Shown piece after piece: positions 1,150 to 11,039 of a stretch of 21,702 bases of DNA. Position 1 is the stretch's first letter, and the number at the start of each line of letters is the position of its first letter. The stretch is taken from IMG/VR virus record IMGVR_UViG_3300044722_000009, positions 1 through 21,702 of that record; one strand, given 5' to 3'. This DNA is from a virus. The notes beneath the pieces are model-generated. The model was given only the letters and a program-made list of their open reading frames with translations. It had not been told where the DNA came from and searched no databases. A program made the translations under genes and the position numbers.

Positions 1150-1358
1150 CCGACGAGCAGACGTTCGAAGGCTACGTCCTGAAGGTCGAGTTGGAGTTCA
1201 TCGCGAACCCGCGTGGTGCACGGGCGATCAGCTCGCAAGCGGCTGAGGTCAGGGACGCCGCGGTCGCGGCTATGCGCACGGCCGTTGAGGATGCGGGTGC
1301 GACGGTGCTCAGGACGGGCTACGGGTGCCTGCCGCTCGTGCCCGGGACCGACACATGA
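1146..1358 (+). CDS. Small conserved-looking protein, unknown function
   Basis: A 70-residue protein beginning MTDEQTFEGYVLKVELEF. It starts on an ATGA overlap with the upstream stop and ends on another ATGA overlap with the helicase-methyltransferase gene, so it is translationally embedded between two convincing genes. It has an N-terminal beta-rich segment and a central helix (AAEVRDAAVAAMRTAVEDAG), then ends [13 protein letters not shown]. No catalytic motif, membrane segment or metal site is visible. Its position suggests an accessory to the downstream fusion enzyme, but this is only inference from order. Confidence 0.7.
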   Translation: MTDEQTFEGYVLKVELEFIANPRGARAISSQAAEVRDAAVAAMRTAVEDAGATVLRTGYGCLPLVPGTDT

Positions 1359-3943
1359 GCTACACCGAGTTCCTCGCGGCGAAGGCGACCGTCGCGACCG
1401 TCGACGGCTTCCCTGTCGACCTGGACGAGATTCACCCGATCTTGAAGCCGCATCAGCGACTGATAGTGCAGTGGGCGGTTCGCGGCGGGCGCCGCGCGAT
1501 CTTCGCCGCGTTCGGCTTGGGCAAGACGATGATCCAACTCGAGGCGCTGAGGCTGATCCTCACGCGGGCGGGCGGCAAGGCGCTGATCGTCTGCCCGCTC
1601 GGGGTGCATCAGGAGTTCGATCACGACGCCGCGATGCTCGGCCTGCAGCTTCACCGGATCCGCACGACGGCGCAGGCCGAGGCGCTGCCCGCTGGGGTGA
1701 TCGCGATCACGAACTACGAGCCGGTCCGCGACGGCAAGCTCGACCCGAACGTCTTCACCGTGGTCAGCCTCGACGAGGCCGCGATCCTCCGGTCGTACGG
1801 CTCGAAGACCTACCAGACGTTCCTGACCTTGTTCGAGGCGGTGGCCTACCGCTTCGTCGCGACGGCGACACCGTCGCCAAATCGCTTCAAGGAGTTGATC
1901 CACTACGCCGCGTTCCTGGGCATCATGGATTCGGGGCAGTCGCTCACCAGGTTCTTCAAGCGCGACTCGACGCAGGCGAACAACCTGACGCTGCTGGAGT
2001 CCCAGGAGCGCAACTTCTGGCTGTGGCTGGCGAGCTGGTCCGCATGGGTGCAGTCGCCGGCAGACCTGTGCGGCTGCGGCTGCCACACGGCCGCGGCCGT
2101 TAACGGGCCCGGCTGCGAGGCCTGCGGCTGCTCGGAGTACGTGCTGCCCGGCCTCGATGTGCGCGAGCACGACATCGCGATCGATCACCGTGAGCGCGAG
2201 AACGTCGAGCGCCACACCGGCCAGCACTATCTGCTCGCCGACAGCGCCGTGAGCTTGCAGGCGGCCGCGCAGGAGAAGCGCGCGTCGATCCCCGCGCGCG
2301 TGCAGCAGCTCGTGCAGATCCTCGACGAGTACGAGGCCGCGGGCGAGCTCGACGCGATCATCGTCTACTGCCACCTCAACGATGAGCAGCGCGCGATCGA
2401 ACACGCCCTCACCGACAGGGGCGTGTCGTTCTCATCGATCGACGGGTCGATGCCCACCGAAGAGGTCGAACGGCACCTAGCCGAGTGGAAGGCCGGCCGG
2501 ACGGTGGCGCTGGTCGGCAAGCCGGTGATGCTCGGCGTCGGCGTGAACCTTCAGCGCGCCAACAAGATGGTGTTCGTCGGGATCGACTACCGCTTCCACG
2601 ACCTCTTCCAGGCGATCCACCGAATCCTGCGGTTCGGGCAGACCCGCCGGTGCGAGGTCCACTTCATCTTCGTTGAGTCTGAGCGTGAGATCCGCATCTC
2701 GCTGTTCGCGAAGTGGCGTCAACACGAGGAGCTGACCGCTGAGATGAGCGACCTGATTCGCGAGCATGGCCTGTCCCGAGCGAGCGTGCTGGACGCGCTG
2801 AAGCGGTCGCTTGGCGTCGACCGCGTCGAGGTGTCCGGGGAGGGGTGGCGGCTCGTCAACAACGACTGCGTCCCGGAGGTCGCGTCGCTTCCGGGCGACA
2901 GCGTCGGCCTGATCGTCACGTCCATCCCTTTCAGCAACCATTACGAATACTCGCCGGCCTACGAGGACCTCGGCTGCACAGAGAGCAACGAGCACTTCTG
3001 GGCGCAGATGGACTACCTCACCCCGGAGCTGTTGCGGGTGCTGCAGCCGGGTCGGATCTACGCCTGCCACGTCAAGGATCGCATCCTGTTCGGCAACGTA
3101 ACCGGCGCCGGCGTGCCGACGTCGTCACCGTTTCACGCCGAGGCGATCATGCACGGCCGCGCCCACGGCTTCGACTACCTCGGCATGGTGACCGTCGTCA
3201 CCGACGTCGTCCGGGAGAACAACCAGACCTACCGTCTCGGCTGGTCAGAGCAGTGCAAGGACGGCACGAAGATGGGCGTCGGCTCACCCGAATACGTCCT
3301 GCTGTTCCACAAGCCTCAATCGGATCGGACGCGCGGCTACGCCGACGAGCCGGTCGCCAAGACGAAGACCGATTACTCGCGTGCCCGCTGGCAGGTCGAC
3401 GCGCACGCGTTCTGGCGCTCCTCCGGGGACCGGCACCTGACGACCGACGAGCTCGCGGCGATGGGCCCGGACAAGCTCGCGAAGGCGTTCACCGAGCACA
3501 CGCTCCAGGGCGTCTACGACTACGAGTCGCACATCCGGATCGGTGAGGCGTTGGATGGCCGTGGTGCGCTGCCGTCGACGTTCATGGCGGTCGCGCCCGG
3601 TTCGCACCATCCCGACGTGTGGCATGACGTGAACCGGATGCGGACGCTGAACGGCGAGCAGTCGGCGCGGGGCCTCGTGCAGCATCTGTGCCCGCTGCAG
3701 GTCGACATCGTGGACCGGCTGATCATCCGGTACAGCAACGAGGGCGAGCTCGTGCTCGACCCGTTCTCCGGGCTCGGCACCGTCCCCGTCCGGGCGCTGG
3801 CGCTCGGCCGTCAGGGCCTGGGCGTCGAGCTGAACGGCGGCTATTTCCTTGACGCGGTGAAGTACCTCGAGGCTGAGGAGCGCAAGCACGCGATGCCCCG
3901 GCTGTTCGACTCGCTCGACGTGCCTGCGGCTTCGACCCGCTGA
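1355..3943 (+). CDS. SF2/SNF2-type helicase fused to beta-class DNA methyltransferase
   Basis: An 862-residue two-part enzyme. The start at 1355 is chosen by its ATGA overlap with the previous gene; the frame extends upstream to 1325 with an unlikely Arg-rich N-terminus. Residues 1-460 form an SF2 ATPase: Walker A FGLGKT at 53-58, a DEAA box at 140-143 (DEAH in most relatives), motif III-like TATPSPN near 170-176, and [11 protein letters not shown] at 419-429 with the motif VI arginines. A Cys-rich insertion at about 239-259 (CGCGCH, then CEACGC) could bind zinc. Residues 490-862 form an amino-methyltransferase in beta order: catalytic motif IV TSIPF at 522-526 comes before the AdoMet motif DPFSGLGT at 802-809. 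SIPF replaces the usual (D/S)PPY. No nuclease domain is visible, so it is probably a translocating self-modification or anti-restriction enzyme rather than a complete restriction system. That role is inference. Confidence 0.9.
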
Positions 3944-4260: not shown

Positions 4261-4301
4261 GGTTGCACAGTCAGGGCTGTCTTGTGCTACCTTTGGTCGC
4301 A
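4261..4301 (+). promoter_or_regulatory. Phage promoter with flanking inverted repeat
   Basis: An extended -10, TGC-TACCTT (hexamer 4288-4293), is followed by TGGTCGC and a likely start point at about A4301. A -35-like TTGCAC lies at 4263-4268, 19 bases upstream. The -35 and -10 are part of an imperfect inverted repeat: GGTTGCAC at 4261-4268 against GTGCTACC at 4284-4291, with one mismatch and a 15-bp gap, which suggests an operator. It would drive the operon starting at 4328 with a short leader carrying an SD. The core matches the promoters near 9618, 10814 and 11026. Confidence 0.65.
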
Positions 4302-5264: not shown

Positions 5265-5591
5265 ATGGCAATCGTTGAGGTGAGCCAGCCGAGCCAGCCG
5301 CGTCAGGCACTGGACCGCGCCAACAAGGTGCGCGCGGCCGCGGCAGAACTGAAACGAGAGGTGAAGGCCGGGAAGCTCACGGTCAGGCAGGCGCTGAGCG
5401 ACGAGCGCGCGGGCGCGGTCACCGTGATTGATCTGCTCAGGTGCCAAGCGGGTGTGCGCCTTTACACCGCGGCCAAGCTGTTGGAGGCCAAGGCGATGGA
5501 GGATCCGGCAAACCGGATCCCGTCCTCGAAGCGGGTGCGTGATCTGACGGACCGGCAGCGCGGCCTGATCGCCGAGTGGTGCGAGTCGTGA
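5265..5591 (+). CDS. Phage-encoded actinobacterial-type integration host factor (mIHF-like)
   Basis: A 108-residue basic protein. The start is fixed by a strong AGGAGG at 5249-5254, ten bases before ATG 5265. The layout matches the mIHF/sIHF family of actinobacteria: a long basic N-terminal helix (ALDRANKVRAAAAELKREVKAG, about 14-36), then TVIDLLRCQAGVRLYTAAKLLEA resembling the family's LLxALPGVGxxxAxxLM segment, then RVRDLTDRQRGLIAEW resembling the RRLRGLGxRQRxALL signature. The family binds and bends DNA without much sequence specificity and was found as a host factor for mycobacteriophage L5 integration. A phage copy could shape packaging, recombination or transcription. The family's glycine-containing turn is altered here (QAGVRLYTA), so DNA-binding details may differ. 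Confidence 0.8.
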   Translation: MAIVEVSQPSQPRQALDRANKVRAAAAELKREVKAGKLTVRQALSDERAGAVTVIDLLRCQAGVRLYTAAKLLEAKAMEDPANRIPSSKRVRDLTDRQRGLIAEWCES

Positions 5592-8201: not shown

Positions 8202-8461
8202 GGATCCTGGTGCAGATGACCGACGGCCGGACGGTGCACCTGCTGGAGCGTCGCGCGGACTTCCTGACGCTCGTGACCCGCAAGCCGACCGAGGCGCTGG
8301 ATGCGAGGCAGCCGATCGCGGCGCTGACCCGGCGGCACGTCGACGGTGGCTTTGAGCCGTCGAGGTTGTTGTTTCTGCGGGCGTCGTCGGTGGCGCAGGT
8401 CGAGCAGGTGTTGCCCGCGATGGACTGCCCGGCGCCCGCCGACAAAGCGAGCCTGGTGTGA
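8198..8461 (+). CDS. Small hypothetical phage protein
   Basis: An 87-residue protein from a GTG overlapping the upstream stop. It starts with a likely beta hairpin (RILVQMTDGRTVHLLE), followed by basic helical sequence and a C-terminal segment with a single Cys (AMDCPAPADKASLV). There is no signal peptide, membrane helix or recognisable motif. Its reality rests on high coding-like GC3 and the exact GTGA overlaps at both ends. Confidence 0.6.
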   Translation: MRILVQMTDGRTVHLLERRADFLTLVTRKPTEALDARQPIAALTRRHVDGGFEPSRLLFLRASSVAQVEQVLPAMDCPAPADKASLV

Positions 8462-8820
8462 GCGACCCGGCGAGCGGTGTCTGTGCGCACGCGCCGACGT
8501 GGGCGGCCTCCTCGTCGTCCCCGACGATCAGAGAATGGCAGCAGGGCACCTGCGCGACCTGCGGCGCCTACGCGAGCTATTACGACGGCGGATGGCACTT
8601 CGGTGAGCCGCCGCCGCTCGTGCTGCAGCTCGCGGCCGAGCGTGACCAGCTGCGCGCGGTCGTGGCTCATGTGGCTGGCCTCGTGGTGCAGGACGAGGAC
8701 GGCTACTCCAAGGTCCACCTCAGCGTGATCGAGGACGCGCGCGCTGTCCTCGCGCCGCGTCGAAAGGGCTCACGTGAAGCGGCCGCGCTCGCTCGTGGAG
8801 TAGATTCCGGGGTCGCATAA
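8458..8820 (+). CDS. Small Cys-containing hypothetical protein, end of operon
   Basis: A 120-residue protein from a GTGA overlap. CAH near residue 9 and CATCGAYASYYDGGWHFG near 32-49 could form a zinc site, after which the protein is helical (LQLAAERDQLRAVVAHVAGLVVQ). Its TAA stop at 8818-8820 coincides with the 5' edge of the TPP aptamer, and a likely promoter for the riboswitch lies inside its last codons. Its transcript therefore runs directly into the riboswitch unless terminated. The function is unknown. Confidence 0.65.
   Translation: MSDPASGVCAHAPTWAASSSSPTIREWQQGTCATCGAYASYYDGGWHFGEPPPLVLQLAAERDQLRAVVAHVAGLVVQDEDGYSKVHLSVIEDARAVLAPRRKGSREAAALARGVDSGVA
8801..8817 (+). promoter_or_regulatory. 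Probable promoter of the TPP riboswitch transcript
   Basis: TAGATT at 8801-8806 fits a TANNNT -10. It is followed by CCGG and then GGTCGCA at 8811-8817, the same heptamer that follows the -10 in the promoters near 4288 and 10814. A start point between about 8813 and 8817 would put the RNA 5' end exactly at the aptamer. No convincing -35 is seen. Confidence 0.45.
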
Positions 8821-8905
8821 CGGGAGCCCGCGCACGACGGGCTGAGAGGGCGCGAGCCGACCGTCAACAGCTGATCCGGGTAATGCCGGCGAAGCGAGGG
8901 TTGTC
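8815..8905 (+). promoter_or_regulatory. TPP (thiamine pyrophosphate) riboswitch
   Basis: The sequence has the conserved thi-box blocks in order. P2 is probably ACGG (8820-8823) with CCGT (8861-8864). The P3 hairpin pairs 8825-8830 with 8838-8843, leading into the invariant CTGAGA at 8842-8847. A GNRA-capped hairpin, GGC-GCGA-GCC, lies at 8849-8858. CTGATCCGGG at 8871-8880 and TAATGCCGGCG at 8881-8891 form the pyrophosphate-binding half, with CCGG pairing CCGG. This layout is what actinobacterial thiC leaders look like. Differences from consensus are AACAGCTGAT for GAACCTGAT and GAAGCGAGGG for GTAGGGA. The AGGG at 8897-8900 is both the aptamer 3' end and the likely SD for ATG 8906, so ligand binding would most simply block translation initiation. 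Confidence 0.85.
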
Positions 8906-8944
8906 ATGCCGCAGGACCCAATGCAGCATCTCGCCGTCGAGTAG
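8906..8944 (+). CDS. 12-codon leader ORF directly under riboswitch control
   Basis: MPQDPMQHLAVE and a TAG stop. Its ATG lies five bases after the AGGG formed by the 3' edge of the TPP aptamer, and its stop is two bases before the GTG of the DNA-binding protein at 8947. It is too short for a stable domain and most likely links riboswitch-controlled initiation to the next gene by reinitiation. Whether the peptide itself matters is unknown. Confidence 0.5.
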   Translation: MPQDPMQHLAVE

Positions 8945-8946
8945 CC

Positions 8947-9558
8947 GTGGCCCCGAAGGTATGGACGCGCGACGCGATCGTCTCAGCAATCCGGGACTGG
9001 GCGGCAGACAACGGCCGCCAGCCAAAACGGACCGACTGGACACACGCAGGAGCCAAGCCGGACCATCCGAACGGGATGACCGTCGTCCGCGAATTCGGAT
9101 CGTGGAACGCGGCTATCGAAGCCGCCGGGTTCGTCCCGGTCCGCCGCGGCCGGGCAAGCCGCGAGTGGACGCAGGACAACATCGTCGAGGCGATCCAGGC
9201 ATGGGCGGAGAAATACGGGCAGGCACCTACCGTGAGGGCGTGGTCTGGCAGCACGCCGAGCCATCCTTCTCAGAGCACGGTCGTGCGGTCGTTCGGATCC
9301 TGGTCGGCCGCGATGCACGCGGCGGGCGTCCCGGTCCGCGGCCGAGGAAGGCCAGATCAGAACCTGTCCAGCCGCCGCGAGTTCTTGGCGGTAACCGGGA
9401 TCCTCCTGGACCGTGCGGTCATCGTCGTGGCCTGCCCTGTTTGTGGTGAGGAGATGCCGGAGGGCGCCGTGTGCGTGCATGACGGGGCGGCTGTGGAGGC
9501 GGGGGAGATGGAGGCGCATGAGGCGGTGGCACTGCGAATCATGCTCAGGCCCGACTGA
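8947..9558 (+). CDS. DNA-binding protein with two HNH-associated repeats and a Cys/His finger
   Basis: A 203-residue protein from GTG 8947, chosen because the first repeat begins right after it and no in-frame ATG lies before residue 44. Residues 6-61 and 74-127 are two copies of one module: WT(R/Q)D.IV.AI..WA...G..P, then TVVR.FGSW.AA..AAG. This matches the homing-endonuclease-associated repeat (HNH_repeat type), a helical DNA-binding module usually found next to HNH nucleases. No HNH nuclease domain follows. Instead the C-terminal part has CPVCGEEMPEGAVCVHDGA with Cys163, Cys166, Cys176 and His178 as a possible zinc site. It is probably a transcription regulator or an endonuclease derivative reduced to DNA binding. 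It is the only sizeable gene between the TPP riboswitch and the next promoter. Confidence 0.8.
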   Translation: MAPKVWTRDAIVSAIRDWAADNGRQPKRTDWTHAGAKPDHPNGMTVVREFGSWNAAIEAAGFVPVRRGRASREWTQDNIVEAIQAWAEKYGQAPTVRAWSGSTPSHPSQSTVVRSFGSWSAAMHAAGVPVRGRGRPDQNLSSRREFLAVTGILLDRAVIVVACPVCGEEMPEGAVCVHDGAAVEAGEMEAHEAVALRIMLRPD

Positions 9559-9589: not shown

Positions 9590-9630
9590 GGTAGCACAAC
9601 ACGACCGCGGATAGTGCTACCTTCGCGGCG
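9590..9630 (+). promoter_or_regulatory. Promoter within a perfect 8-bp inverted repeat
   Basis: GGTAGCAC at 9590-9597 and GTGCTACC at 9614-9621 form a perfect inverted repeat with a 16-bp gap. The right arm contains the extended -10 TGC-TACCTT (hexamer 9618-9623). GTG 9630 lies six bases after the -10, so the RNA probably begins at or next to that codon. The same arms, with one mismatch, frame the promoter at 4261. A shared repressor or activator binding both is the simplest reading. No terminator is seen between 9558 and here. Confidence 0.6.
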
Positions 9631-9680
9631 TGAGCATGCTATGCCCGCCCCGGCTGGAGGCCGATGCCGGCGCCAAGTAA
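9630..9680 (+). CDS. Possible leaderless 16-codon mini-ORF
   Basis: GTG at 9630 sits at the predicted transcription start of the promoter above. The ORF reads MSMLCPPRLEADAGAK and stops at 9678-9680, inside the next gene, whose ATG is at 9664. It could be a leaderless leader peptide that delivers ribosomes to the overlapping gene, which itself has GGAGG only three bases before its ATG. Evidence is positional only. Confidence 0.35.
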   Translation: MSMLCPPRLEADAGAK

Positions 9681-10775: not shown

Positions 10776-10811
10776 AGGTCCGAAAGTTCTCCCTCCCGCG
10801 ACCAGTCTTAT

Positions 10812-10827
10812 GCTACCTTTGGTCGCA
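10812..10827 (+). promoter_or_regulatory. Promoter reading into a terminator
   Basis: TGC-TACCTT (hexamer 10814-10819) followed by TGGTCGC and a likely +1 at A10827. From TGCTAC through TGGTCGCAC it is identical to the promoter at 4286-4302, the longest such match in the window. There is no inverted-repeat left arm here. The nearest strong feature downstream is the hairpin terminator at 10863-10895, with no plausible coding start between. Confidence 0.65.
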
Positions 10828-10897
10828 CTTCCCCATTCCCTTCCGGGGGAGCCTTAGGCACTACGAAAGCCCGCGCGCCCAACGCGGGCTTTCGTGC
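10827..10897 (+). ncRNA. Candidate ~70-nt small RNA
   Basis: The interval between the promoter at 10812 and the terminator at 10863-10895 would give a transcript of about 70 nt. It holds a possible hairpin of TCCCC (10830-10834) with GGGGA (10846-10850) and then the terminator stem. The G-rich segment 10845-10849 looks like an SD, but no start codon follows within range before the terminator. It could be a regulatory small RNA, or a transcript attenuated under an antitermination system. Existence rests on promoter and terminator recognition only. Confidence 0.5.
10863..10895. terminator. Strong bidirectional intrinsic terminator
   Basis: ACGAAAGCCCGCG at 10863-10875 and CGCGGGCTTTCGT at 10883-10895 are perfect reverse complements with a 7-base loop. 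The AAAGCCCGC/GCGGGCTTT layout is the classic form that works from both sides. It would end the ParB-like operon as well as the short transcript from 10827. Confidence 0.8.
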
Positions 10898-10996: not shown

Positions 10997-11023
10997 TCGT
11001 TCGTCCAAGTAGCCGCGGCTAAC

Positions 11024-11039
11024 GCTACCTTTGGGTGCA
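11024..11039 (+). promoter_or_regulatory. Leaderless promoter
   Basis: GC-TACCTT (hexamer 11026-11031) followed by TGGGTGC and then ATG at 11039, seven bases after the -10. The transcription start would be the A of the start codon. No SD lies upstream of the ATG, consistent with a leaderless message. The core is nearly the same as at 4288 and 10814. Confidence 0.65.

Follow-up and report, generated by a model that had tools for sequence, protein, structure and literature searches.

TPP riboswitches, which are among the best-known RNA sensors, belong almost entirely with thiamine genes and usually, if not obligatorily, control thiamine synthesis or transport. What, then, is a TPP aptamer doing inside a block of phage genes? 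The DNA analysed here, called the window throughout, is a 21.7-kb IMG/VR virus record with a G+C content of 69%, and its recognised genes, all on the plus strand, include those for a helicase-methylase fusion, a terminase, a Mu-type portal, a head protease, and a major head protein. A first-pass annotation, made from the sequence by itself, had reported no thi gene near the aptamer, and indeed none is recognised anywhere in the window; nor is an integrase. The host is probably an actinobacterium, judging from the G+C content and from a gene at positions 5265 to 5591 whose product resembles actinobacterial integration host factor (NF041260; 39.7 bits, against a cut-off of 60). The fusion protein, encoded at 1325 to 3943, joins an SNF2-type helicase to a DNA methylase and has more than 400 relatives in IMG/VR.

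A cmscan of the window against all 4227 Rfam families gave a single convincing element, a match to the TPP model RF00059 that covers all 105 model positions (Table 1); when the record is searched with RF00059 alone, the E value is 4.8e-11. The thi-box blocks, the P2, P3, and P4 pairing, and the GNRA hairpin of actinobacterial type described in the first-pass annotation are all borne out. CTGAGA occupies positions 8842 to 8847 and CTGATCCGGGTAATGCCGGCG positions 8871 to 8891, the UGAGA of J3-2 and the P5/J4-5 block are exact, the P3a loop is the GNRA tetraloop GCGA, and helices P2, P3, P4, and P5 all pair in the covariance alignment, single mismatches aside. Three of the five pairs of the closing helix, P1, are broken in the Rfam register, and alternative pairings of the flanks, without covariation support, are possible. 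The aptamer stretch folds no better than shuffled versions of itself (z = -0.03 and -0.75). We regard it as confirmed, from its sequence, that an aptamer of the TPP class and of actinobacterial type lies within this phage gene block.

Table 1. Positions in the window of the TPP aptamer, its parts, and the neighbouring features.
Feature	Positions	Strand	Basis or remark
Preceding phage ORF, unassigned	8458..8820	+	Stop codon inside aptamer match
Candidate -10 element TAGATT, weak	8801..8806	+	Read from sequence; fits TANNNT
TPP riboswitch aptamer (RF00059)	8810..8914	+	Full-length match, 50.6 bits, E 2e-7
P2 (8820-8823/8861-8864) and P3 (8826-8830/8838-8842)	8820..8864	+	Pairing in covariance alignment
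UGAGA (8843-8847); P3a with GCGA loop (8849-8851/8856-8858)	8820..8864	+	Covariance alignment
P4 (8870-8872/8893-8895), P5 (8876-8879/8886-8889), conserved CUGAUCCGGGUAAUGCCGGCG block	8870..8895	+	Covariance alignment
Shine-Dalgarno-like GAGGG at aptamer 3' edge, directly after P4	8896..8900	+	Placed as in actinobacterial thi leaders
12-codon ORF (MPQDPMQHLAVE), in the place of the thiC start of host leaders	8906..8944	+	Sequence
GTG-started gene, 203 aa, two HNH_repeat domains	8947..9558	+	Pfam PF18780, 79.4 bits, E 2.4e-22
Following phage gene	9664..10125	+	Homologues in L009, L012, L024, and L184-L186, relatives without the aptamer

The match lies 3.7 bits under the RF00059 gathering score of 54.3 bits, and the first-pass annotation had named a sub-threshold score as a reason to doubt the element. 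To place this number, 12 TPP leaders from actinobacterial records in a plasmid collection served as controls; 11 of them precede annotated thiC, thiO, thiS, or thiamine-transporter genes, the exception being a Nonomuraea record with almost no gene table. These leaders score from 49.7 to 65.5 bits, and four fall under the gathering score, among them a thiC leader at 49.7 bits and the leader of a thiS operon at 51.6. The window thus sits at the low end of the ordinary actinobacterial range, and because the cut-off also excludes a third of the control leaders, we read the match as TPP class. The shortfall itself stands, but it loses its refuting force since genuine leaders score the same.

Conservation was assessed over the 52 columns that are kept in at least 10 of 11 aligned actinobacterial leaders, 46 of which are retained by the window aptamer. 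Two of the six departures together make up the outermost P4 pair, where every one of the 11 references has C-G and the window has G-C, so that pairing is kept; a pair-keeping double change of this sort is expected by chance about 1 time in 20, on a rough estimate, and therefore suggests, without proving, selection on the structure of the core. As the aptamer is known from one phage sequence, covariation among phages cannot be read. Two further departures, at positions 8867 and 8868, fall in J2-4, where they could alter folding or binding of the ligand.

The closest known system is the actinobacterial thi leader, as found in Nonomuraea (L174) and before the Tsukamurella thiO (L175) and Rhodococcus thiS (L176) operons. 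Shared with these are the ACGGGAG...GACCGUC P2, CUGAGA, the AAUGCCGGCGAAG block, and an aptamer 3' edge that carries a purine-rich ribosome-binding site, with an ATG soon after. In contrast, the window has a weaker P1, a flipped outer P4 pair, a differing J2-4, and, as the target, a 12-codon ORF and an HNH_repeat phage gene in place of a thi gene.

The arrangement downstream agrees with what had been read earlier, namely, a Shine-Dalgarno sequence at the aptamer 3' end, a 12-codon ORF, and then a protein with two HNH-associated repeats. The ATG at 8906 lies 12 nt from the reference base, within the range of +10 to +19 seen in the reference leaders. The short ORF ends with the stop codon at 8942 to 8944, and the GTG of the HNH_repeat gene follows 2 nt later, preceded by a poor Shine-Dalgarno sequence of its own. 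The 203-aa product is a probable DNA-binding protein. Pfam assigns it the HNH-associated repeat alone and NCBIfam assigns it nothing; we find no HNH nuclease domain with either and hence do not class it as an HNH homing endonuclease. A search for related solved structures returned none, and an AlphaFold model of the protein was left aside (pLDDT 38).

The probable promoter that had been placed at the aptamer edge is not borne out by a scan for sigma-70-like sites, which gave none; only TAGATT fits TANNNT there, as a possible -10 element. The pattern TA..YT followed by GGTCGCA is present three times in the window versus 0.08 expected, a count that is biased because the pattern was devised after the site had been seen. 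The gene starting at 9664 has its own promoter-like GTGCTACCTT.

Among records that share the terminase, the portal, or the 9664 gene (G001, G003, G006, G018, and G098-G100, among others), none has a TPP match. Searched for in ten records, PF18780 was present in G097 only, a record that came up through its HNH_repeat and is no syntenic relative; a search of IMG/VR gave one HNH_repeat relative, which is distant and without a TPP element. As both the aptamer and the HNH_repeat gene are missing from the nearest relatives, they look like a lineage-specific acquisition, confined to this lineage within the set of relatives compared. The first-pass annotation had proposed that absence from syntenic phages would count against the element; the absence is real, and it reads as an acquisition in one lineage rather than as a sign that the element is spurious. 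The right-hand junction, on the 9664 side, is conserved in G003, while the left-hand junction is not recognisable there. An exact empty site in G003 was sought and rejected, the left-hand gene match being too weak (BLASTP does not detect it, and its score is reached by 8 of 1000 shuffles). In G003, a cysteine-rich protein with an HNH_repeat-like stretch, seen by eye, is encoded upstream of the 9664 homologue (L183, 1665 to 2207), with no TPP element.

The sequence is best explained by descent from a host thi leader, the history that the first-pass annotation had offered as simpler, and the interpretation of that annotation as a whole is partly supported. We slightly favour the view that the captured actinobacterial leader is an OFF switch that works on translation of the short ORF and, by coupling, of the HNH_repeat gene. 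This phage lineage would have captured the leader of a thi operon and placed it before the HNH_repeat gene, and the RNA would bind TPP of the host. TPP would close the aptamer and hide GAGGG, lowering initiation at the ATG at 8906, in the way put forward for TPP leaders of actinobacteria; the OFF sign is what we infer. The HNH_repeat gene would follow the short ORF by translational coupling, given its poor Shine-Dalgarno sequence and its start 2 nt after the short ORF's stop, and the probable DNA-binding protein would be made mainly when host TPP is low. More tentatively, and with somewhat less confidence than an even chance, the phage may read the vitamin B1 state of its host through a host-derived riboswitch and so set the level of a DNA-binding regulator.

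In favour of the OFF switch are the full-length match within the control range, the 46 conserved columns, the P4 flip, the thi-like spacing, a folding cost within that of the references, and the joint absence of aptamer and HNH_repeat gene from relatives. Against it are the poor P1, the J2-4 changes, the single sequence, folding that yields no sign, and the promoter that was not found. Another reading is a relic, in which a host thi leader arrived with acquired DNA and is now decaying; it would no longer be a useful sensor of TPP and would at best supply the gene with a leader and a ribosome-binding site. The poor P1 and the two altered J2-4 bases make this a serious rival and the main one, and the flipped P4 pair, the relatives without the element, and the lack of a second phage with it in our scans are also compatible with decay. 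However, UGAGA and the block at 8871 to 8891 are intact, the remaining core helices form, and P4 still pairs despite its change; an unconstrained 105-nt RNA would be expected to have lost more. On balance, we hold a relic to be unlikely. Less likely still is a working aptamer of opposite logic, in which TPP frees the Shine-Dalgarno sequence and the gene is expressed at high TPP. At most transcript lengths tried, the aptamer takes about 6 kcal/mol to form (3 to 14 in the references), and enforcing it raises Shine-Dalgarno or AUG accessibility at some lengths; the sign of this change varies with transcript length, in the window and in real leaders alike, so the calculation carries little weight. 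Folding was accordingly discarded as a guide to the sign of the switch, being uninformative for real thi leaders too.

Two further readings are very improbable. The phage might carry host THI-box sequence as the attP with which it integrates at a TPP leader of its host, a reading brought to mind by several integrated IMG/VR elements that end inside a THI box. Those elements hold a partial box at their border, whereas the window aptamer is whole and lies inside a gene block, and no integrase is recognised in the window; we therefore rate an attachment site as a distant prospect. The elements in question end within the box in their first ~100 bases (L121, L123, L132, L137, L148, and L153) or at positions 1 to 160 (L141). 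The former six look enterobacterial, one of them (L123) with terminase and capsid genes, and the first long reading frame of L141 looks like an integrase. In these elements, the 3' half of the TPP riboswitch, which is conserved, looks as though it had served as an integration site; they have in common with the window that mobile DNA touches TPP riboswitch sequence. A chance match or an assembly chimera would be in keeping with the score under the curated cut-off, and is just as hard to credit. The E value of 2e-7 over the full-length model rules out a chance match, and the actinobacterial signature also speaks against one; phage genes flank the aptamer closely, so that a chimera would need both joins within ~0.8 kb.

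To see how unusual the locus is, 2.9 million IMG/VR contigs were scanned with two patterns for the THI-box core, which miss some TPP variants, followed by covariance searches. Only three records (L002, L005, and L006) carry TPP elements above the cut-off, and the genes after them include those for an NMT1/THI5-like protein (L002) and ThiC (L005 and L006). Three fecal scaffolds in a phage collection also carry TPP elements, each leading into thiamine-related genes: hydroxyethylthiazole kinase and thiamine phosphate synthase, a YkoF-family protein and an ABC permease, and a thiamine transporter. The window has the only full TPP element in the scanned virus records without a thiamine-related neighbour, and the IMG/VR scans gave no second phage with a non-thi TPP aptamer. 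A search of 84,980 genomes for a TPP element and an HNH repeat at fixed spacing returned seven pattern matches, five of them real TPP elements and none with an HNH repeat, which is weak negative evidence because the pattern is narrow. Apart from short chance matches, BLAST searches of INPHARED for TPP elements turned up nothing but fecal scaffolds that are unverified and fragments of Salmonella or E. coli.

No publication describing phage gene control by a TPP riboswitch turned up in a literature search. Riboswitches, whatever their class, are reported to be uncommon in phages, and glutamine types are cited as examples (PMC9004378). The glutamine riboswitch before the tmRNA of marine phage Melnitz and its relatives (PMC9004378) resembles the window in that a phage metabolite riboswitch is predicted to stand over a gene unrelated to synthesis of its ligand. 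It differs in class, in target, and in belonging to marine phages of Proteobacteria, and it recurs in relatives, whereas the window is a single record. What we describe is a known RNA class in what appears to be a new setting, odd in its place and plausible in its function. If the switch does govern a phage regulator, it would tie host vitamin status directly, and in a testable way, to the control of phage genes, and would clearly exemplify the rewiring of a riboswitch to a new target.

Other repeated sequences were noted in the window. The motif GNGCTACCTTNG recurs upstream of genes, at 4284 to 4295, 9614 to 9625, 10810 to 10821, and 11022 to 11033; with one mismatch allowed, there are five matches versus 0.61 expected, and two copies extend to TGCTACCTTTGGTCGCAC. 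The copy before the 9664 gene is also kept in G003. GNGCTACCTTNG is a putative phage promoter or operator. GCTACCTT sites are repeated in the window. A 13-nt perfect inverted repeat with a 7-nt loop (ACGAAAGCCCGCG/CGCGGGCTTTCGT; 10863 to 10895) is terminator-like but has no T run. In the gap that separates the HNH_repeat gene from the one after it, a perfect 8-nt inverted repeat (GGTAGCAC/GTGCTACC; 9590 to 9621) overlaps the repeated motif and is a possible operator.
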